In this document: piece after piece, positions 5,801-20,591 of the stretch
Position numbering within the stretch: position 1 is the stretch's first letter
How the letters are laid out: the number at the start of each line of letters is the position of its first letter
DNA from: a virus
Direction: 5' to 3' (one strand)
IMG/VR virus record: IMGVR_UViG_3300043395_002975
Location: 1-20,591 of that record
Length of the DNA: 20,591 bases
Notes under the pieces: generated by a model
Told to the model about the DNA's origin: nothing
Seen by the model: only the letters and a program-made list of their open reading frames with translations
Databases searched by the model: none
Program-made: the position numbers and the translations under genes

Positions 5801-8800
5801 AGCAACAGGTTTACCGTCGAAGGGGACCGAACCAACACCTACAAATCCGGAACGGTTGCGGCCTTCACCGATGGTACAACGTCCTTCTTGGAGTTGTACC
5901 TGGTAACGGGTGCGGCTTACAAAGCCGATACGAATCGTACTGAGGTCACGCTCGCAACGAACTCCCTTCGCCAGTACGTGTCGGCCAACGGACATCTCCT
6001 GCGGCACTCTGTTCGTCCTATCGTTGAGTCGGCCTCAGCCTCGGTGCGTACGCAACGACCTCCCGTTACAACTCGCCCGTCCACTTCACCGATCACCGTT
6101 TACCGAAAGGTCGCCGGCCAGAAGGGCACTGTACTTACAGCGCCGACAGATTACACGATCGATGACAGCGGTGAGGTGAAGTTCAAGACATCGCTCCTTC
6201 GTGATGAGGAGTTCGGCATCCTCTACACGGGCAACATCATCGTCAACTCGGGGCGAAACGTCCGCGCCACGTACAGCCATTTGATCGTACCCACGGCAGA
6301 GAATGGCATCCTCAACCAAGTGTTGAAGATGGACTACCAGCTCTATTCTCCGGACACGTGGTTCTACCGTGTCGAGACGTTCACGAACTACCGGGCGGAG
6401 CTTTCACAGCAGTACGAGCAGGCAGCGAAATCGGGTACACCTTCGGGTGGCCCCAACACATCGAATATGCCTCAACCCAAGCTCTACGAGCAGGGGCGGC
6501 CGTCCGCCTTCTTCGATGAAGGCCGGTACGCAAATGAGGACGTGGTCGCGAGAGCTTCGCTCAAATGGTACAACGACACCATCAACTACTTAGAGGATGT
6601 CCTCCAGAATGTTGACGGGCGAGTTGTCGGCCACCGCAGTGGTCGATTTAAGTTCGACGGGAATCTCAACCCCGGCAACGTCAACCCCGGCAGTGCAACG
6701 AATCAGATCGACGACATCGTCAAAATCTCGGATGCCCCGTTCTCGATCTCGTTCTCGTTCCCCAACTTCTCCGTGGGGGCGCTTGGGACATACCAGAAGT
6801 TCTACCTGCCATCGTCGTTCAGCCGCTTCTACCCAACGCAAAAGTTCATCTACGGGGTGTCCGCGAACGCAACCGAGACAGGTCAAACCGTTCTCGATCT
6901 GAAGGCTAAGAACGTCACGGCGGTTGTGGACCTCTCAACCCGGCCGGCTTTCGCCATCGTCACGAGAGACGCACCCGCCGGCGCGACCACGGTGACGGTC
7001 GATAATGCGCAGGGGAACGCAGGTCAGGTGCGCCCCCCATTCCTAAACGGGATGAAGTGCCTCATTCAGAAGAGAGACGGAACGTTTGTCGCGAACGTCC
7101 TAGCTCCGGTGACTGTTTCGAGCGTGGTGTCGGCGACAACCCTTGCGGTGAGCCCCCTACCAGCCGCCGTGCCAGCGGGTTCAACCATCTACCGTTCTCC
7201 GATCGATGACTCGAATGCGAGCGGTGGGGCGCAGCCTATCGTGAGTCAGATGGTTCACTACAACCCACCGAGCTATAGTATCGACCCCGAGAAGGGTTTG
7301 CTTCTGTACACGAAGGCGACACCGCCTCTGGACGGAAGCTCCTCCCCTACCCCCGTACCTAACGAGTTGGTTATCAAGCAGATCCCGGCAGGACAGCCGT
7401 TGCAGTGCTTCGCTCAGTTCTCGAATTCGCTGACTGAGCCACTTCGCATTCCTGCCTTGGATGGCCTCGCTGTGGACGATGCAGGGTCATTGACCTTCCC
7501 GATCCTCACCCCCTCTTTTGAGGCAGAGGTCATCCCCTCAACGGTCCTGCCACCATCCGGTGGTGGGTACGCTTACAACGAGTACGAAATCGTCAAAACG
7601 GGCGGTTCGCTTCGCGCCGCCACCCAAGCCCCGTTCGTCGGGACGGGGACAATGAACGTTGGTGGTACAATCGTCACGTCGTCCACGGCGTTTGGTTCGC
7701 CGGTACCGAAGCAATATGACCTTTTACGGATCACTTCGGGCGTGAACGCAGCCTCCGCGTATAGACGCATCGTCTCAGTTGTCGGGACCGCGATCACAGT
7801 CGACACCCCATTCACGTTCGATGGGGGCGGCTTCCAGTTCACCGTCACCGTGTCTACCAGCCTGGTTACTGGCACTGCGTTCACCACTACGGTGAACGGC
7901 GCGTTGCTGACGGACACCTCGGCGAATTTCATCACCGCTGGCGTTCAAGCAGGACACACCGTCGTGTTCACCTCTGGTTCGATCGTAGGCGATCGCTATC
8001 AAGTCCTAGCGGTGACGAGCGCGACCACGCTCCTCTTGCATACGTCCACAGGACTACCGTCGACGTCGATCGGGTACCACATCGACAACCCGCTCAACAC
8101 GTATGGCGGCCCTGGGTCCCTTTTCGACATCCTCACGACATCGGTTCAAGGGCAAATCGATGTGCTGAGCACGAACGTCCCACCCAAACCACTCAACGAG
8201 GCGGCCGCGCTGGAGGCCTCACTAGAACAGGCTTTCGAGAACGTCGTGTCTCCCTCAACGGGTAGCGCCTCGGGAACAACGTTTACAGATCCAGGGGCCA
8301 CGTTTCAATCCTCCGACGTTCTCAACTCACACTTCTTGTATATCAGGAACGGAGTGGCAGCGGGCGTCTACAAGGTCATGAGTGTTAACTCGGAGACACA
8401 ACTCACGGTCAGCCCCTCTTTTCCGAGTGCTGACCCCTCCGCAGGGTACCGCGTCGTGTCTTCGTTCGAGGTCACGTACAACTCTCTGTCTGATCTCTTC
8501 GTGCAACTCACGGCCATTGAGAGCTACGTCGCTGGGATCCCACCGTTCCTTGCAAAGCTGTCTCAGGCTCAGGTCATCAAACCAGGCCCCGTAACCGACA
8601 CGGTTGCGCTCGCCAACACTCTGACGACCGCTGATCTCGATACGCGCGAGCCGGTCGTCCAGAGCCGCGTTAATACTGTTTCGGATCCCAATGGCATCGT
8701 AACCAAGGTCTCAAACGTTCTTTCGGGGGCCGACAAGCTCTATGACAAGAGGTACGTTTGGATCGACGCTCGAATCAACTTCGAGAAGGGCATCCTTACC

Positions 8801-13234: not shown

Positions 13235-16200
13235 ATGGCGACGGCACCCCAAATCAAACTTCGAGACGGTAGCGGCTTCACGCAAAGCCTGGTTTTCACG
13301 ACGAACCAGGACTTCGTAGTCCTTGAGGGTACAATCTCTGTCGACACGGCGGATGTCCAAGTCTCGATCAACGGTGGTCCGTTTGTCTCCGATGCCAATC
13401 TCGTCCGTCTAGACCTTCAAACGTTCACGCTACCAAATCCTTCGACGTACCCTTCAGGATTGCCTCTGGACATTGGTCTCAACACGATTGCCATCCGTAC
13501 CGTTGATATCGTTGGTAGCGTAAGCGCGCCCTCAACGGCAACGGTCACACGCGTTCAGAGCCTTCGGGATGTTGTCGCGGAGATCCCCTCGGGGGTTCAT
13601 GTTCGGCGACGTCGAGATGCCGTCGATCTCTTGGCGGCAAAACCGGCGCCTTTCGTGACCACGTCAAGCGGTGTGGCCATCACTCAACCTTCAATAACGA
13701 CGCTCATCGGGTTCAACTTCTATGCCTCGGATTCTCCGTCTGGGGGCACTACTGGCTATATTAAGATCAACGAAAAACCCGTCATCGCCTCGTCCGTGTA
13801 TGAGGAGTCCATTTTCACGGTCTTCGAAGACACGACCACGTGGTCGCAACTCACAGGGACAGGTGTCCGCATCGAAGTCGTCGAAGACGATAACTTCGAT
13901 GTTGTAACGGCCACTCGTTTGAACCAACGCTATAGCACCGTGTTGCTCACGGGGTCGTTGCGGTTCAAGAGCACGATCGAGAGCTTTCGGTTGACGGAGT
14001 TCGTCTCGTTCAGGCATTTCCGTAGTGGTGGACCCAACACGATCAACGCGGACCAGTTTGCCTCCGTCGCCGACACGAGTCCTCTCTACTACGTGGTCAC
14101 AGGTGTCTATTACGATCCGGTGACGAATGAAGAGGTCGAGACAAGCTATTCCCAAGAGGTCGTCGGCCTGCCCTTGATCATCGACACTGCCGTACGTGAC
14201 TTACCCACACGGACGAGTTTAGACGTAACCAGGGAATATATCCGGCAAGTCCTCATCGTCAACCGGGAGATCAGCCTGATCCCTGGGTCGACTACACGCG
14301 ATGTCAGCGTAGACCCGTTCGCGAGCGAGGCGGAACGACTTTGGTTCATCGTCGACTTCGTCCACCGAAGCGGCAGTTTCCTCACGCTCCTTCAGATCGA
14401 CGACGCGGATGGGAACGGTATTTCGGATCCGGTCGCCGGAAGTGCCTACAAGCAGGCGCTCAAAGCGGCTCTTGGTTTCTCGAACGACGATGCGGTTCAA
14501 ACCCTTATCGATCAGCAGTTCGGGAAGCTCGCAGCGAATGTCAACAAGACTAGGCTGCCGGGTAGGGCTGCCGTTGGGCAGGCGATCATCTACACGTCTA
14601 CTCGCCCAACCACAGACATCACCATTCCGGCGGGCACTTTCGTATCCACGGATGCAGATACGTCAAACAACCTTCCTTCGGTGCGGTTTCGTATCGGCGG
14701 ATCGTATATTCTCCCGGCAGCTAGTGCTGACGCGTTCTTCAACTTCGACACGAAGCGGTACGAAATCACCGTCGATATCGTCGCGGAGTCCATCGGAGAG
14801 ACGGGTAACCGTCCCGCTGGTACCATCAAGAACATTTCTGGCATCGCCGGTGTGTTCGTGACGAACACTTCCGCCACTGTTTTTGGTGCGGATCGAGAGT
14901 CCAATGCGGATCTCGCCGCGAGGGCGATGCTAGCGTTCGCCTCGGTAGATACCGGCACTGAGGGCGGGTATGCCTCGACTGCTGCCGAGCAAGTCGGAGT
15001 TATCAAGGCGAAGATCGTCAAGAGCGGCGACCCGCTCATGATGCGCGACTATGACGATGTTCGTCACAAGCATATCGGAGGGAAGGTTGACATTTGGGTC
15101 CAAGGTCTGCGAGAGCGCCAAGTCTCTGAGAGGTTTGCGTTTACTTTCGACATCGCCAAGGACATTATTTGCCAGATCGTCGACATCCCGACGCTAACGT
15201 TCAGGGTGCTGGACTCCCGTGTCACCCCCGATACCCCCATCGTTGAGATTCTCAACAACTTGAGCCAAGGCCTAGGTGTCCGAAACACGACGATCGGCCA
15301 AGATTATGACCTCACGGGCGTGTCGATCATCGATTACCGCACCTTCCAGCTCAACACAGCTATTTCTCAACCGACAACATCAACCGATGATGTGATCGTT
15401 GCAGACTATCGCTTCCGCGCAGTGAATCAGTTCCGATTTACGTTGCAGCCGGTTAGAAGGGTTGTTTCGGTCGTGGGTGAGGTCTCAGGCGCGTTGGACC
15501 CCACTCTAGGGTACAACCTCTACAAGACTGACGACCCTCTTCTCACGGGAGAGAGCACGATCGCGAAGGACTACCTTGCGATCAACCAGATCGATAACAT
15601 CCCGAGCGGTGATAGCATCTCCGTCAGTGCAGAGTCTCACGTGCTCATCGGGTTCGTGCAAGAGCCGCTCAACTCGATTGGAATTAACACGAAGACCATT
15701 CGTGTGTTCTCCGCGGATCGAACCATCGAATACGACGGTCCGACCGCGGCTGTTCCTGACTTTGAAATCATCGACGGAACCGCCACAACCCCTGTAAAGA
15801 TTGTGCGGACAGCTTCCTCCGAGATTCGGAACGGGGAGGCGGTCTCCGTTGACTATGCACATGACGAGAACTTCACTGTCGTCTATGTGATCAACGATGT
15901 GTTGCAGGAGCTTCAGCAGACTGTCGATGCCCGAAGGCACACGACAGCGGATGTGTTGGTCAAGCAGTCCGTAGATAACAAGATCGACATTGAAAACACC
16001 GTGCAGCTCACCAAGGGTGCGTCCAAGGATCGTGTCGACCCGGCGATTCGGTCCAACGTGAGCACTGAACTGGATAGGAAGACGATTGGACAGGGCCTTT
16101 CTCAATCGGACGTAATCCGCACCGTCGACAGCACGGATGGTGTTAACTTCTCTCCGGTACCCTATGCACGGTTGGCGTACGCGGACGGGTCCAGGAAGCT

Positions 16201-16696
16201 CAGAGAAACCGTGCTCTCGACGTTCACGCGGGTGGGATCCCTCGACCTTGGGGCGAACCGCGCATACCTGCTATCCAACCCGTTACAGTACCCGACAACA
16301 GACGGGGGCGGTCAAGCGACAGAGCACAGGGGTGTCTTCCAGGATGACGAGGCTATGAATCTCTCATCTGCCCTTGCGTCCGTGTGTTCTCTTGCCAACC
16401 AAGCCTTCATCATTGGCTCTGGGGGTGCCCTCATCCAAGGGTACTCAGACGACACAACGCTGACCAACGCGGGCTTTACCACGTCGGAGGATCGAGCGGA
16501 AGAGAGGCTTCGTCGAACGGCGAATCACATCGTTGTGTCGCTCTCGGGTGCGGGTACCCCGCCTGATGAACCAACGAATCACAAGTATGCCGTGAGTTAT
16601 ATCATTCGTGGAGACAGTGGTGCCCACGACATCACGGCTTCCGACGTTGAGACCATTGCGCTTGGCGGCCTCACTATCACGTTCAGGACGGCGTAA
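13235..16696 (+). CDS. Baseplate J-like (gp6-type) wedge protein, 1153 aa
   Basis: ATG 13235 has GAGG at 13223-13226. Residues 1-105 look like an Ig/FN3-type sandwich (VQVSINGGPFVSD, GLNTIAIRTVDIVG). Residues ~320-625 carry the baseplate J signature: helix, PGSTTRDVSVDPFASEAERL, a long helical stretch, TIPAGTFVSTDAD, GNRPAGTIKNISGI, ESNADLAARAMLAF, and TGTEGGYASTAAEQVGVIKA. Further beta-rich domains follow to the end, about 500 residues. P2 gpJ is near 300 residues and T4 gp6 near 660, so this is an enlarged version with extra N- and C-terminal domains. The known role is to form the ring joining wedges around the tail tube and drive the baseplate conformational change. Its stop overlaps the next start as TAATG. 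Confidence 0.85.
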   Translation: MATAPQIKLRDGSGFTQSLVFTTNQDFVVLEGTISVDTADVQVSINGGPFVSDANLVRLDLQTFTLPNPSTYPSGLPLDIGLNTIAIRTVDIVGSVSAPSTATVTRVQSLRDVVAEIPSGVHVRRRRDAVDLLAAKPAPFVTTSSGVAITQPSITTLIGFNFYASDSPSGGTTGYIKINEKPVIASSVYEESIFTVFEDTTTWSQLTGTGVRIEVVEDDNFDVVTATRLNQRYSTVLLTGSLRFKSTIESFRLTEFVSFRHFRSGGPNTINADQFASVADTSPLYYVVTGVYYDPVTNEEVETSYSQEVVGLPLIIDTAVRDLPTRTSLDVTREYIRQVLIVNREISLIPGSTTRDVSVDPFASEAERLWFIVDFVHRSGSFLTLLQIDDADGNGISDPVAGSAYKQALKAALGFSNDDAVQTLIDQQFGKLAANVNKTRLPGRAAVGQAIIYTSTRPTTDITIPAGTFVSTDADTSNNLPSVRFRIGGSYILPAASADAFFNFDTKRYEITVDIVAESIGETGNRPAGTIKNISGIAGVFVTNTSATVFGADRESNADLAARAMLAFASVDTGTEGGYASTAAEQVGVIKAKIVKSGDPLMMRDYDDVRHKHIGGKVDIWVQGLRERQVSERFAFTFDIAKDIICQIVDIPTLTFRVLDSRVTPDTPIVEILNNLSQGLGVRNTTIGQDYDLTGVSIIDYRTFQLNTAISQPTTSTDDVIVADYRFRAVNQFRFTLQPVRRVVSVVGEVSGALDPTLGYNLYKTDDPLLTGESTIAKDYLAINQIDNIPSGDSISVSAESHVLIGFVQEPLNSIGINTKTIRVFSADRTIEYDGPTAAVPDFEIIDGTATTPVKIVRTASSEIRNGEAVSVDYAHDENFTVVYVINDVLQELQQTVDARRHTTADVLVKQSVDNKIDIENTVQLTKGASKDRVDPAIRSNVSTELDRKTIGQGLSQSDVIRTVDSTDGVNFSPVPYARLAYADGSRKLRETVLSTFTRVGSLDLGANRAYLLSNPLQYPTTDGGGQATEHRGVFQDDEAMNLSSALASVCSLANQAFIIGSGGALIQGYSDDTTLTNAGFTTSEDRAEERLRRTANHIVVSLSGAGTPPDEPTNHKYAVSYIIRGDSGAHDITASDVETIALGGLTITFRTA

Positions 16697-16941
16697 TGGC
16701 TCGCTTCACCAAGGACCCCACGCCTTCCCTTGCCGCAGTGATAAGCACCTCCTTACGAGGGAAGCTCGGGGAACAGAGTCATCCCTTCCGACGTGACCTA
16801 TCAACGACCGCCATCCTCCAACTAATCTCGGAAAGGGTCACCAGGAAACAGATTACTCTGGAGTTAAACACGGCCGTTGGGACAATCTCAAAGCGACTGC
16901 ATGCGAGAGTTCTCGAAGCGAAAAAAATGGGGGCGTTGTAA
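16696..16941 (+). CDS. Small helix-turn-helix-like protein in the baseplate operon
   Basis: ATG 16696 shares one base with the stop of the J-like gene (TAATG); AGGA at 16685-16688 is a fitting ribosome site. The 81-residue product has a basic N-terminus (SLRGKLGEQSHPFRRDL). A typical HTH pattern follows over residues ~37-72: TAILQLISERVTRKQITLEL, then NTAVGTISKRLHARVLEAKK. This matches the ilxLixxxxTxxqIAxeLxxsxxTVxxRL pattern of LuxR/sigma-region-4-type HTHs, and resembles the HTH segments of the endonuclease at 18759-19733. The gene stop TAA is immediately followed, in the same frame, by the ATG of the next gene. A DNA-binding regulator is unusual here; a degenerate endonuclease remnant or a small structural helix bundle are alternatives. 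Confidence 0.65.
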   Translation: MARFTKDPTPSLAAVISTSLRGKLGEQSHPFRRDLSTTAILQLISERVTRKQITLELNTAVGTISKRLHARVLEAKKMGAL

Positions 16942-18012
16942 ATGCCCAGGTTCGTTCTAGATCCCAACCGGGTCAATTTCACGGTCACCCAAACCGGCAA
17001 AGAGTACAATCTCCGGCTCGTTGGGCGGGCGCAGTCCATTTTCAACACGCTGTTAGGGCTCCTTCCTTCTAACTACATCTCGCTCGTCCAAGGTCCGAAT
17101 TACACGAACGAGATGAAGGCGGTGGCGATAGAGCTGGCTCGTATCGAGCTGGCCTTGGAAGACGTGGACACGGATCGCTCTTTCCCAACGACGCGGCCCG
17201 ACTTCCTCTACTCGATGGTAGGCTATCTTCTTCTTCTGAATGGCCGCCTGCCCCCTTTGGCCTTCGATGACTTCGAGTTTCGGAAGTTTTTGCTCGATCT
17301 CGTCCGCATCTACTTTCAAGGAGCTGTTCCGAAATCGATGCGAGATGCCGTCCAGCTTTTCTACTCAGGGACGGTCAAGATCACGGAGAACTTCATCCGA
17401 ATCCGAGAGGGGGCTTCTGGATACGACGTCTCAGACCAGTTCGGGTTTCAGATCGATGTGACGATCGGCGGCGGAACGATCCAGGTAGGGTCTAGTGCTA
17501 GTTTGACGGTGACGGATGGCGACCTCATCACCGTCACCGGCTTGGCGAACATGAGCATCGACTCGGTGGGCCGTCGCCTCGTGGTCAGCAATGCTGCGTC
17601 GTCGGCAAACAACGGAACGTTCGAAGTCGCGGTGTTTATGACACCATCTTCGGTGAAGATCCGGAATGCGAGCGCGGTCGCAAATGACGCAAATAACGGC
17701 TCCATTGGCTGGAAAGAGGAGGCTCCTGTGGCCTCGTTTCCAGCGGATGTGTTCTCACTCGATTCTGCCACGCGCATCCTTCTGGATATCATTCGACCGG
17801 CCCACACTCTTTTCAGGATCCGGTACGTCTTCACCGATCGCTACCTGCCTAACGACACCATCGGTCGTGTCCTAGACACGATGAAGTGGGCGCTAAGTAC
17901 TTACTACTATGACGATTTCCGCTCCTACTGGGGCGGTCTCAGAGATATCGATCGCCTGGGCAACAAGGAGGCTCAGGTCGTTGAAGACGAAGATCACAGC
18001 AGCGATTTTTGA
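16942..18012 (+). CDS. gpI-like tail protein with an inserted beta domain
   Basis: The ATG follows the upstream TAA with no gap; a G-run at 16929-16933 is the only ribosome-site candidate. Residues 25-150 are mainly helical (SIFNTLLGLLPSNYISL, NEMKAVAIELARIELALEDV, FEFRKFLLDLVRIYFQGAVP). This recalls tail protein I, which attaches fibres to the wedge, and the gene lies straight after the J-like gene as in P2. Residues 188-263 form a separate beta module (LITVTGLANM ... ANNGSIGW) that interrupts the flow between FQIDVTIGGG and LDIIRPAHTLFRIRYVFTDR. The same module occurs in the gene starting at 19810. The C-terminal ~30 residues are acidic. The family assignment leans on position and helical pattern. 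A large fibre-connecting subunit of another family is the main alternative. Confidence 0.6.
   Translation: MPRFVLDPNRVNFTVTQTGKEYNLRLVGRAQSIFNTLLGLLPSNYISLVQGPNYTNEMKAVAIELARIELALEDVDTDRSFPTTRPDFLYSMVGYLLLLNGRLPPLAFDDFEFRKFLLDLVRIYFQGAVPKSMRDAVQLFYSGTVKITENFIRIREGASGYDVSDQFGFQIDVTIGGGTIQVGSSASLTVTDGDLITVTGLANMSIDSVGRRLVVSNAASSANNGTFEVAVFMTPSSVKIRNASAVANDANNGSIGWKEEAPVASFPADVFSLDSATRILLDIIRPAHTLFRIRYVFTDRYLPNDTIGRVLDTMKWALSTYYYDDFRSYWGGLRDIDRLGNKEAQVVEDEDHSSDF
17503..17730 (+). repeat. Shared beta-domain, copy 1 (in gpI-like protein)
   Basis: Codes residues 188-263 of the gpI-like protein. Aligned by hand to the region 20020-20247 without gaps, about 45 of 76 residues are identical. These include ITVTGL, SVGR, ANNGT, the SAVAxDANNG block and the closing W. 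The DNA has diverged more than the protein, so this is not a fresh duplication. Confidence 0.85.
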
Positions 18013-18094: not shown

Positions 18095-18640
18095 ATGCTC
18101 GGAGAAATGTACCCCGCCCGTGCCCGACTCGCGATCAGCCACCAGAGGGCCTACGACTATGACGAGAAGCGCGGCATCTATGTCTTTCGTCCCGTCGACG
18201 CGCAGCTCGACGCCGAGGAATACTGGAACGTTATCACGAACGCTGGCCGTGTTGGTCTCCACACGTACGTGTACGGCACGTCTTCGCAGCGCTCGGCGGC
18301 CTCCCCTGTCGTGTCGAACGTAGGGCTGAACTACATCGCCCTCACGAACGACGCAACCGCAGCCTCGAACAGTGACACGACCCTGACGAACGAATTGACG
18401 AACGGCGGTGCGCCGGGCCTCGGCCGGGCGCAGGGCACCGTGACCCTCCCCACGGGTTCCGGCAACCAGACCACGATCGCCCGCACGTTCACGTTCACCG
18501 GATCATCGCAGGCTGTTCAGAAGACGGCTCTCTTCGATGATCCCTCTTCGGGTAGGATGATCCACGAGATCAACTTCACGCAGCGTACATTGTTGACCAA
18601 CGACACACTTACGGTCACCTTCACAATTACAGCGGGCTAA
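18095..18640 (+). CDS. Small virion structural protein, 181 aa
   Basis: The start chosen is ATG 18095 because AGGAG (18084-18088) lies six bases before it. A TTG at 18077 would extend the frame by six residues and would put the ribosome site inside the coding region. Residues ~1-55 are mixed (MYPARARLAISHQRAYDYDE). From residue ~80 the pattern is NYIALTND, dTTLTNEL, GRAQGTV, ARTFTFTGSSQAVQKTALF, then a beta C-terminus NDTLTVTFTITAG. I recall this arrangement as common in tail-associated proteins of unknown function in many phages, from memory only. It occupies the place of the fibre genes in P2-type clusters but is far too short for a fibre by itself. It may be a baseplate- or fibre-attached cap. 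Confidence 0.7.
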   Translation: MLGEMYPARARLAISHQRAYDYDEKRGIYVFRPVDAQLDAEEYWNVITNAGRVGLHTYVYGTSSQRSAASPVVSNVGLNYIALTNDATAASNSDTTLTNELTNGGAPGLGRAQGTVTLPTGSGNQTTIARTFTFTGSSQAVQKTALFDDPSSGRMIHEINFTQRTLLTNDTLTVTFTITAG

Positions 18641-18742
18641 ACGGCACACACCCCACGCGAACGACGAGGTCACCCCTGCGTGAGAGGTCTGACGGAGATG
18701 CTGTGAATGTGTTGTCTATTGGTGATCCCTCCCCCCATATTG

Positions 18743-18752
18743 TGGTATAGAT
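18743..18752 (+). promoter_or_regulatory. Possible extended -10 promoter for the endonuclease gene
   Basis: TG-G-TATAGA at 18743-18751 resembles an extended -10 element (TGnTATAAT), with a mismatch at the important last position. Initiation would fall about 18757-18759, on the GTG start codon, giving a nearly leaderless mRNA without the left arm of the adjacent inverted repeat. No -35 at the usual distance is convincing; TTGTCT at 18712 is 28 bases away. The rest of the gap 18641-18758 holds nothing I can support. Confidence 0.3.
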
Positions 18753-18782
18753 AACGCCGTGGGTATTCATGGCGTTATCTAT
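18747..18782 (+). promoter_or_regulatory. Perfect 12-bp inverted repeat enclosing the GTG start
   Basis: ATAGATAACGCC (18747-18758) is exactly complementary to GGCGTTATCTAT (18771-18782), with a 12-base spacer that begins with the GTG start codon (18759-18761). In RNA this is a long hairpin with the start codon in the loop. As DNA it is a palindromic operator-like site. No T-run follows, so it is not an intrinsic terminator. T4 homing endonuclease genes are known to hide their ribosome sites in hairpins of read-through transcripts, and I-TevI can repress its own promoter. Which use applies here is an inference. Confidence 0.75.
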
Positions 18783-19733
18783 GCGTTAATCGACCCCCGT
18801 TCAGATACGGTTCGGTATATCGGGCAGACCACTTACGATGAGCCAACACAAAGGTTGGCTGCTCACCTTTGTCCATCCGCGGTGAAGAAACACTCCTACC
18901 TTGCGCGATGGTTAAAGGGGATCGTGGATCAGGGTCTAAAGCCCGAGATGGTCTTGCTCGATGTTGCCTATACTCAGGCGGAGCTGGACCAACTTGAGAT
19001 GGGGCACATTGCGAGATACCGACAGGAGAGTTTTCGCCTCGTCAATCTCTCCGATGGTGGTGGCGGTCGTCATGGTTCAAGAAACTCCCCAGAGGCGTAC
19101 GAAAGGACTCGTCAGGCTCATTTAGGGAAGCCCAAACCGAAGAGCCCCGAATGGTGCGAACACATGGCTAAGGTCATGGCTAGGCGCCGGACCAACACGC
19201 AGGAGCACATGGACATGCTCCACACGCTTCGTCTGAGGACCACTCATTCCTACGAGACGAAGGCCCGCATCTCTGCGGCGAAGAAGGGCGTACCCTCCGC
19301 CTTCAAGGGTCGCGAGCACACACCCGAAGCCAAAGCGGCCAATGCTGCGGCCCACGTCGGAAAGATGACGGGCGCGAAGCATGCACAGTGGGACGACAGT
19401 ATCGATACTGAGAGGGACATCCTCGCGCGCCTGAGGACGGGCATGACGGCGACGGACGTGGCGAAGGCGATCGGGAAGACTCGAACGTTTGTGCAACGGC
19501 GGCTCGCCGGAATCGACCTCGCGAGTCACGGGATCGTGCTCAAGCGGGGCGCCCGTAAGGGAGCCGATCAGAGCCACGTCAAGCGCCGCAAGGGCGCCGA
19601 GCATCACGCATACCGGGCAGATATCGACGACGAGGTCATCAAGGTTCTTCACGCGGAGGGTCTTTCTCCGCAAGCGATCGCGAATAGGTTGGGCTGCTCC
19701 GAGACGATGGTTCGTGGGCGTTTAGGGCTCTGA
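18759..19733 (+). CDS. GIY-YIG homing endonuclease, free-standing
   Basis: This 324-residue protein has a GIY-YIG nuclease domain in residues ~5-103: VIY at 6-8, YIG at 20-22, catalytic-type Arg 32 (QRLAAHL), Glu 80 (LEMGHIARY) and Asn 96 before a Gly run (LVNLSDGGGG). Two NUMOD3-like basic DNA-binding motifs follow at ~107-147 (SPEAYERTRQAHLGKPKPKS) and ~185-225 (THSYETKARISAAKKG; FKGREHTPEAKAANAAAH). Two HTH-like segments lie at ~220-260 (ILARLRTGMTATDVAKAIGK) and the C-terminus (HAEGLSPQAIANRLGCSETM). The family cuts a target in endonuclease-free relatives and spreads by repair copying. GTG 18759 is the only start that keeps the first nuclease strand: an in-frame stop lies at 18723-18725 and no Shine-Dalgarno is visible. 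By hand count, lines in the nuclease part are ~52-53% GC and in the HTH part 63-70%, hinting at a composite gene. Confidence 0.9.
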   Translation: MGIHGVIYALIDPRSDTVRYIGQTTYDEPTQRLAAHLCPSAVKKHSYLARWLKGIVDQGLKPEMVLLDVAYTQAELDQLEMGHIARYRQESFRLVNLSDGGGGRHGSRNSPEAYERTRQAHLGKPKPKSPEWCEHMAKVMARRRTNTQEHMDMLHTLRLRTTHSYETKARISAAKKGVPSAFKGREHTPEAKAANAAAHVGKMTGAKHAQWDDSIDTERDILARLRTGMTATDVAKAIGKTRTFVQRRLAGIDLASHGIVLKRGARKGADQSHVKRRKGAEHHAYRADIDDEVIKVLHAEGLSPQAIANRLGCSETMVRGRLGL

Positions 19734-19809: not shown

Positions 19810-20591
19810 ATGCCTGACGTCGTCATTGCGAACACACAGGTGCAAGCCACGAACAACACGTGGAGTGGTGTTTGGAAGCTTACTCGTGCCATGAAGAAGG
19901 CGGGGTGGCGATACATTGGGTCATCCAATGGTACATCGAAGGACACTACTGGGAACCCGTCGAACGACTACTGGGGCGCTCAGAACACGGTAGCCGGACA
20001 AACAGGGTCCGCGGCGGCGTTGACGACGATCTCAGGGCCAGATATTACGGTTACGGGGCTCACGGGTATGTCGACTTCTTCAGTGGGCCGCTTCCTTCGA
20101 GTCACTGGGGCTGCATCTGCTGCGAACAACGGGACGTGGCAGATCGTCGCCTTCATCTCTGCGACATCGGTGAGGATCCGCAACACCTCGGCGGTCGCGA
20201 GCGATGCAAACAACGGGGCCATCACGTGGTTCGAGGACGATCCCGTCCTCGACGCCTACCCGTCGCTCGACAGCGTCGCTGCCTGGTGGGCCGCCCGTGG
20301 CCCTGATGTCCTCAAGATCCCCATTGGGTCTGCTTCCACGGGAACGTTTCTTCGAGGTGAGGGGGTGACGCAGACGTCTACGTCCGCGACGGGCGAGATT
20401 CTAGGTTACGTCTACAACACACCTTCGGATAGCTATATCGTAGTGATGCCTCGTTTTGGCACGTTTAACGGATCGAACGTGATTACGGGTTCAACTTCTG
20501 GTGCAACAGTTACGCCGAACGCGAGCGTGATCACGTTCGCCAATGAGGTGGTCTTCTGGAAAGCGAATGACCTCGTAAACGGTACCATCTA
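19810..20591 (+). CDS. Beta-rich virion protein, 3' truncated by the window
   Basis: The frame from ATG 19810 has no stop through the right edge: 260 full codons, then TA, which could still be the start of a stop codon. AGGA (19797-19800) and GAGG (19802-19805) lie upstream. Residues 1-60 (NTWSGVWKLTRAMKKAGWRY, then GSSNGTSKDTTGNP and DYWGAQ) form one unit that looks familiar from phage structural proteins, from memory only. Residues 71-146 are the beta module shared with the gpI-like protein. Residues ~150-260 are another Gly/Ser/Thr-rich beta unit (AWWAARGPDVLKIP, GTFLRGEGVTQT, GSTSGATVTPNAS). Position after the baseplate genes and the repeated module suggest a baseplate-attached or fibre-like protein. 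Its true length is unknown. Confidence 0.75.
   Translation, partial: MPDVVIANTQVQATNNTWSGVWKLTRAMKKAGWRYIGSSNGTSKDTTGNPSNDYWGAQNTVAGQTGSAAALTTISGPDITVTGLTGMSTSSVGRFLRVTGAASAANNGTWQIVAFISATSVRIRNTSAVASDANNGAITWFEDDPVLDAYPSLDSVAAWWAARGPDVLKIPIGSASTGTFLRGEGVTQTSTSATGEILGYVYNTPSDSYIVVMPRFGTFNGSNVITGSTSGATVTPNASVITFANEVVFWKANDLVNGTI
20020..20247 (+). repeat. Shared beta-domain, copy 2 (in the right-edge gene)
   Basis: Codes residues 71-146 of the right-edge protein (ITVTGLTGMSTSSVGR ... SAVASDANNGAITW). It is the partner of 17503-17730, about 59% identical by hand count over 76 residues with no gaps. Here it joins two other beta modules, rather than interrupting a helical/beta protein as copy 1 does. 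Confidence 0.85.

Follow-up and report, generated by a model that had tools for sequence, protein, structure and literature searches.

In the window analysed here (the whole stretch of viral DNA, 20,591 nucleotides in length), the start codon of a predicted homing endonuclease gene lies in a perfect inverted repeat, no Shine-Dalgarno (SD) sequence precedes it, and the computed RNA structure is stable, with an opening cost beyond that of nearly all neighbouring starts (Table 1). Judging from these folding predictions, the hairpin most likely lowers translation of the gene on the tail-operon message. Our preferred reading, which we hold tentatively and at somewhat short of an even chance, is that a start-sequestering hairpin silences translation on read-through mRNA, as described for the phages T4 and Aeh1, and is possibly relieved by an internal transcription start. 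The repeat would work at the RNA level: in the long tail-operon transcript, positions 18745-18784 would fold into an 18-bp hairpin that holds both the GUG and the place of an SD sequence, so that read-through transcripts would yield little or no endonuclease. We infer that this hairpin forms in vivo, that it is under selection, and that relief comes from a transcript with its 5′ end at about 18754-18759 (possibly leaderless), or else that leaky initiation is the only outlet. The hairpin may be a selected switch or a mutational accident.

Table 1. Features of the endonuclease locus and its surroundings, in window coordinates
Feature	Position	Strand	Remarks
Relic of a second homing endonuclease	16696-16941	+	81 aa; precedes 16942
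Upstream tail-region gene	18095-18640	+	SD GAGGAG; conserved in relatives whether or not they have the endonuclease
Extended -10 look-alike TGTGGTATAGA	18741-18751	+	Hexamer 18746-18751; would put a 5′ end near 18758
Predicted 18-bp RNA hairpin	18745-18784	+	Loop 18763-18766
Left arm of inverted repeat	18747-18758	+	Non-coding; sits where an SD sequence belongs
GTG start codon	18759-18761	+	Paired with CAT 18768-18770
Free-standing GIY-YIG/NUMOD3 homing endonuclease gene (predicted)	18759-19733	+	324 aa
Right arm of inverted repeat	18771-18782	+	Encodes G-V-I-Y in the conserved GIY motif
GIY-YIG catalytic domain	18771-19022	+	aa 5-88
NUMOD3 DNA-binding motif	19242-19337	+	aa 162-193; 27.8 bits (cut-off 20.4)
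Two helix-turn-helix-like segments	19407-19724	+	aa 217-256 and 292-322
Downstream tail-region gene	19810-20591	+	Extends past the window end

The gene at 18759-19733 is predicted to encode a free-standing GIY-YIG/NUMOD3 homing endonuclease. Its product matches a PHROG of homing endonucleases and carries the conserved Y, Y, R, H/Y, E, and N of a GIY-YIG catalytic domain (Y8, Y20, G22, R32, H36, E80, and N96 are invariant across the endonuclease alignment), behind which lie the NUMOD and helix-turn-helix (HTH) modules expected of homing endonucleases, including an HTH_23 match of 27.6 bits (cut-off 24.6). The Pfam GIY-YIG model matched the window protein with an E-value of 8e-4 and 20.0 bits, slightly below the cut-off of 22.6, which is passed by the homologue L008. 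In L032, a relative with an empty allele and a downstream homologue 64% identical to that of the window, the homologues of the two flanking genes are 65 bp apart, and the endonuclease gene is therefore an insertion in the tail operon, between genes that are adjacent where it is lacking. All plausible genes of the window read in the + direction, and among the neighbours is the gene of a baseplate J protein. Related contigs reach up to 529 kb, so that the window is probably a fragment of an uncultured giant phage; no relatives were found among contigs of prokaryote genomes, and a search of solved structures gave no sequence match.

The perfect 12-bp arms originally predicted at 18747-18758 and 18771-18782 were confirmed. 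Positions 18747-18782 read ATAGATAACGCC-GTGGGTATTCAT-GGCGTTATCTAT, or ATAGATAACGCC GTG GGTATT CAT GGCGTTATCTAT when laid out as an inverted repeat, with perfectly complementary arms that reach 15 bp and run through the start codon if one G-T pair is allowed. The start codon had also been placed free at the 5′ edge of a 12-nt loop, which does not hold in the RNA fold: an 18-bp stem (18745-18762/18767-18784) is closed by a 4-nt loop (18763-18766), and the GUG (18759-18761) is paired within the stem with CAU (18768-18770), one of the pairs being G-U. The minimum free energy of the hairpin at 18745-18784 is -27.9 kcal/mol (z = -5.8), and equal stability was reached in none of 200 shuffles. This is the sole perfect inverted repeat of the window with arms of at least 10 bp and a loop of 3-20 nt, and perfect repeats with arms of at least 12 bp occurred in 9 of 600 dinucleotide-shuffled windows. 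Because the right arm is conserved coding sequence (G-V-I-Y, aligned with the homologues), it is the left arm that is the unconstrained partner; the H codon preceding G-V-I-Y pairs with the start codon.

That GTG 18759 is the only usable start is supported by the ORF scan, in which it is the sole ATG, GTG, or TTG from the stop at 18723 to the GIY motif, and by its alignment with the ATG of the homologues L008 and L022 (N-termini M-G-I-H-G-V-I-Y in the window, M-K-I-H-G-V-I-Y in L008, and M-G-I-Y-G-S-I-Y in L022). The claimed lack of an SD sequence holds as well; the anti-SD duplex at this codon is just -2.8 kcal/mol, compared with -5.8 to -11.2 kcal/mol at 8 of the 11 other window starts scored at their correct coordinates (those at 1983, 2518, and 11346 are weak too; 19810, scored one base off, is not counted). 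Opening the region from -15 to +6 of the endonuclease start is predicted to cost 22.3 kcal/mol, while the starts of homologous tail genes average 9.8 kcal/mol (sd 3.4, n = 156), which gives the window gene a rank of 0.006. Clearing the region from -15 to +15 is predicted to take 20-29 kcal/mol for transcripts with 5′ ends up to about 18748, which supports the earlier proposal that read-through mRNA would be shut off; the range for nine neighbouring genes is 9.9-19.2 kcal/mol. The cost falls to 14.4 kcal/mol for a 5′ end at 18752, 11.9 at 18754, and 5.7 at 18759, so that with 5′ ends at or beyond 18754 (5.7-11.9 kcal/mol) it does not exceed that of most neighbouring genes. Because loss of the left arm lowers the clearing cost, a transcription start inside this arm would release the gene, as in T4. 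The GUG is nearly fully paired for earlier 5′ ends and still about 80% paired with the 5′ end at 18759. Release in the model is thus graded and a 5′ end near 18758, as first proposed, is borderline: the low clearing cost speaks for it, but the GUG would remain mostly paired even with the 5′ end at 18758-18759.

Sequestered endonuclease starts have been published for T4 and Aeh1 (PMC2988022, PMC3014915). Hairpins hide the ribosome binding sites (RBS) of I-TevI, I-TevII, I-TevIII, segB, and Aeh1 mobE on read-through mRNA, and late promoters open them (PMC2988022). As with the four T4 genes, the window has an endonuclease gene within a longer operon and a stable hairpin predicted at its initiation region on read-through mRNA (PMC2988022), and a transcription start inside the left arm would likewise remove the hairpin. 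In the T4 hairpins, however, a consensus SD sequence about 8 nt before the AUG is sequestered and then opened by the late promoter (PMC2988022), whereas the window has no SD sequence to be freed, its start codon and GIY codons form the stem, and its promoter is only putative. The mobE gene of Aeromonas phage Aeh1 is also a free-standing endonuclease gene that is flanked by phage genes and has a sequestering hairpin (via PMC2988022), but it belongs to the HNH family and sequestration of its RBS was demonstrated experimentally, while the window gene is of the GIY-YIG family and its hairpin a prediction. Another very stable hairpin is found by the endonuclease start of seg43(25) in Aeromonas phage 25 (PMC2988022); it lies upstream of a free RBS, unlike that of the window, and is nearer to the structure of L098 described below. 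The window therefore resembles T4/Aeh1 control by prediction, in that a stable structure would sequester the initiation region on read-through RNA, and departs from it in two features of the group, namely a consensus SD sequence inside the structure (anti-SD duplex -2.8 kcal/mol) and conservation of the structure in related phages. The original interpretation thus survives as to the sequestered start, but not as to conservation.

An endonuclease gene occupies the same site in six distinct relatives: L004, L008 (with its near-duplicate contig L009), L022, L081, L098, and L142. The original prediction had staked itself on the repeat being kept in relatives that carry the gene, and there the comparison went against it, as the repeat is absent from all six, although the nearest of them is only about 47% identical. 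Apart from 14 nt shared with L089, the window leader has no significant similarity to that of L008 or the others, and searching for it in phage records returned nothing meaningful. Three of the six have other, unrelated structures at initiation, which favours silencing: in L081 the SD sequence lies within an imperfect hairpin some 20 bp long (z = -2.5), in L022, which starts 4 nt past the upstream stop, the AUG is paired to upstream RNA (z = -2.8), and in L098 an 11-bp hairpin stands between the upstream stop and the ATG (z = -4.4). Against silencing stand the lack of conservation of the repeat, the frequency of palindromes in the coding sequence of this lineage, and the open initiation regions of the other three relatives, L142 (which starts directly after the upstream stop), L004 (with a TTG start 4 nt past the stop and an SD-like stretch), and L008 (unstructured at its start). 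The start-codon opening ranks of the six relatives, window excluded, combine to P = 0.03, and those of the wider region from -15 to +6 to P = 0.14, which is not significant; a general tendency to structured starts among same-site endonucleases thus has weak support. Among about 18 endonucleases checked for start hairpins, perfect repeats above background were found only in the window, which had been selected for possessing one, and in L098. L081 has a good SD sequence (AAAAGGAG) inside its hairpin (1270-1330) and is a cleaner T4-like candidate than the window. In L027 the same site holds a truncated endonuclease. In L005 it has a remnant of about 31 codons (14857-15010), which joins in frame the endonuclease start (MSKVKYGIVYGLYDPITGELR) to a C-terminal-like end, RRLRKAA, and is the result of decay by internal deletion.

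A serious rival, which we find possible but doubtful, is that a template switch in replication placed a copy of the right arm (CATGGCGTTATCTAT), which codes for the GIY motif, in the leader, so that a quasi-palindrome became perfect and the SD sequence was lost. The hairpin would then be without a regulatory role and may even mark the onset of decay in the endonuclease. Template switching has been described as a source of perfect hairpins (PMC8794818), and endonuclease decay is common here, as seen in the L005 remnant, the L027 truncation, and the window relic at 16696-16941. Moreover, this phage group is rich in perfect palindromes of such a size, which outnumber those in shuffles about 20-fold: 900 kb of relatives contain 12 distinct perfect repeats of at least 12 bp compared with 0.6 in shuffles, and 57 compared with 16 when arms of at least 10 bp are counted. 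Of 58 repeats with arms of at least 10 bp, window included, 53 fall in predicted coding sequence, a count obtained with crude gene prediction that labels almost everything coding. When a perfect 14-bp palindrome within coding sequence of L040 (13461-13492) is compared with its counterpart in L044, each change in one arm is matched in the other (GAGTCGGG/CCCGACTC vs. GAGACGGG/CCCGTCTC), which, together with the excess of palindromes, suggests that such palindromes commonly arise by template switching. An accident is harder to reconcile with the intact 324-aa frame and catalytic residues, with the three same-site relatives that are likewise structured at the start, and with the position of the repeat exactly on the start codon; the background of the relatives predicts about 0.27 such repeats per 20.6 kb, and this position brings the estimate to about 1%, a figure that is not a clean test, as the window was chosen for its repeat. 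L003, the closest relative, has a perfect 12-bp repeat of its own (8023-8062) just before the homologue of 11346, in DNA that is unalignable to the window; its protein from the gene upstream of the endonuclease site is 98% identical to that of the window, but its sequence stops shortly before the site.

If the hairpin is selected, silencing of this kind would extend from T4-like to uncultured giant phages, with the start and catalytic codons serving as the lock; if it is accidental, it would illustrate how a single template switch can silence a selfish gene. In both cases, the related phages present a natural series at this site, i.e., empty, openly translated, structured, and decayed.

A special case of the preferred reading, which we consider unlikely, is that a promoter at TGTGGTATAGA starts an mRNA on or beside GTG 18759 and that loss of the left arm both opens the hairpin and leaves the message leaderless. 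We would give no better prospects to a one-piece on/off switch, in which the GIY-motif codons, as one half of the hairpin, would lock their own start on the long mRNA, and a promoter in the other half would provide a leaderless escape. The possible extended -10 over the left arm is present as a string, in that TGTGNTATA occurs only once in the window, counting both strands, inside TGTGGTATAGA and at leaderless spacing; but TGTGGTATAGA is without the conserved final T and without a -35 match, and the ATAGATAAC part of the look-alike has to be as it is in order to pair with the right arm. A promoter scan of the region found no convincing promoter, and the leaderless idea of the original prediction is built on a half-consensus -10. 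With 5′ ends at 18757-18759 opening would cost little, but the residual pairing of the GUG and the SD-like sequences of the nearer relatives L008 and L081 argue against such an escape. In L089, a distant endonuclease, TGGTATGATAAC-AGC-ATG stands at an identical offset (P = 0.02 without regard to position, suggestive only). In mycobacteriophages, hidden HNH homing endonucleases have been proposed to initiate from leaderless messages (PMC11855218), and those of ShiLan share with the window gene a GTG start and the lack of an SD sequence; they are, however, nested out of frame in a methylase gene, and no start-codon hairpin is described for them in the available part of that source (PMC11855218).

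The suggestion that the palindrome is a DNA operator overlapping a promoter, bound by the HTH segments of the endonuclease or by another dimeric repressor, gained no positive evidence, and we regard it as quite unlikely. I-TevI is established to repress its own promoter (PMC2988022), and the window protein is comparable in bearing two HTH-like segments, with a possible operator at the -10 look-alike. I-TevI is monomeric, though, and its operator mimics its homing site, whereas the repeat shows no significant local similarity to the flanking genes or the empty allele, the candidates for the homing site. In addition, conserved codons fix the sequence of the right arm, and no second copy was found in seven related records or beside other endonucleases in the viral collection. 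When a repeated operator of the form GATAACGCC-N4-30-GGCGTTATC was sought in viral contigs, 27 stretches matched, none of them beside an endonuclease. Although a stable stem just past the tail genes might suggest their transcription terminator, this we reject as highly improbable, since no U-run follows the stem on either strand, the terminator scan missed it, and the right arm is inside a conserved coding motif.

A second insertion site lies before the homologue of the gene at 16942, where most endonucleases begin with an SD-like stretch and, by their sequence, look openly translated. These endonucleases (L003 13462-14304; L094, L128, and L152; the 13451 region of L008) open with MPRFTPDPNR or MARFTKDPT, and the gene at that site itself begins with MPRFVLDPNR, which resembles the endonuclease starts, as if they had captured the translation start of the 16942 homologue. 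The relic at 16696-16941 has lost its catalytic domain; it still begins with MARFTKDPT and retains 53 aa that share 70% identity with the C-terminal region of the full-length endonuclease found at this spot in L003. The protein encoded by 16942-18012 has an extra domain of about 85 aa (aa 179-263), missing from most relatives, which recurs in the downstream gene at 19810-20591 and in other tail genes (L004, L025, and L032) and, judging from this distribution, is a shuffled tail domain.
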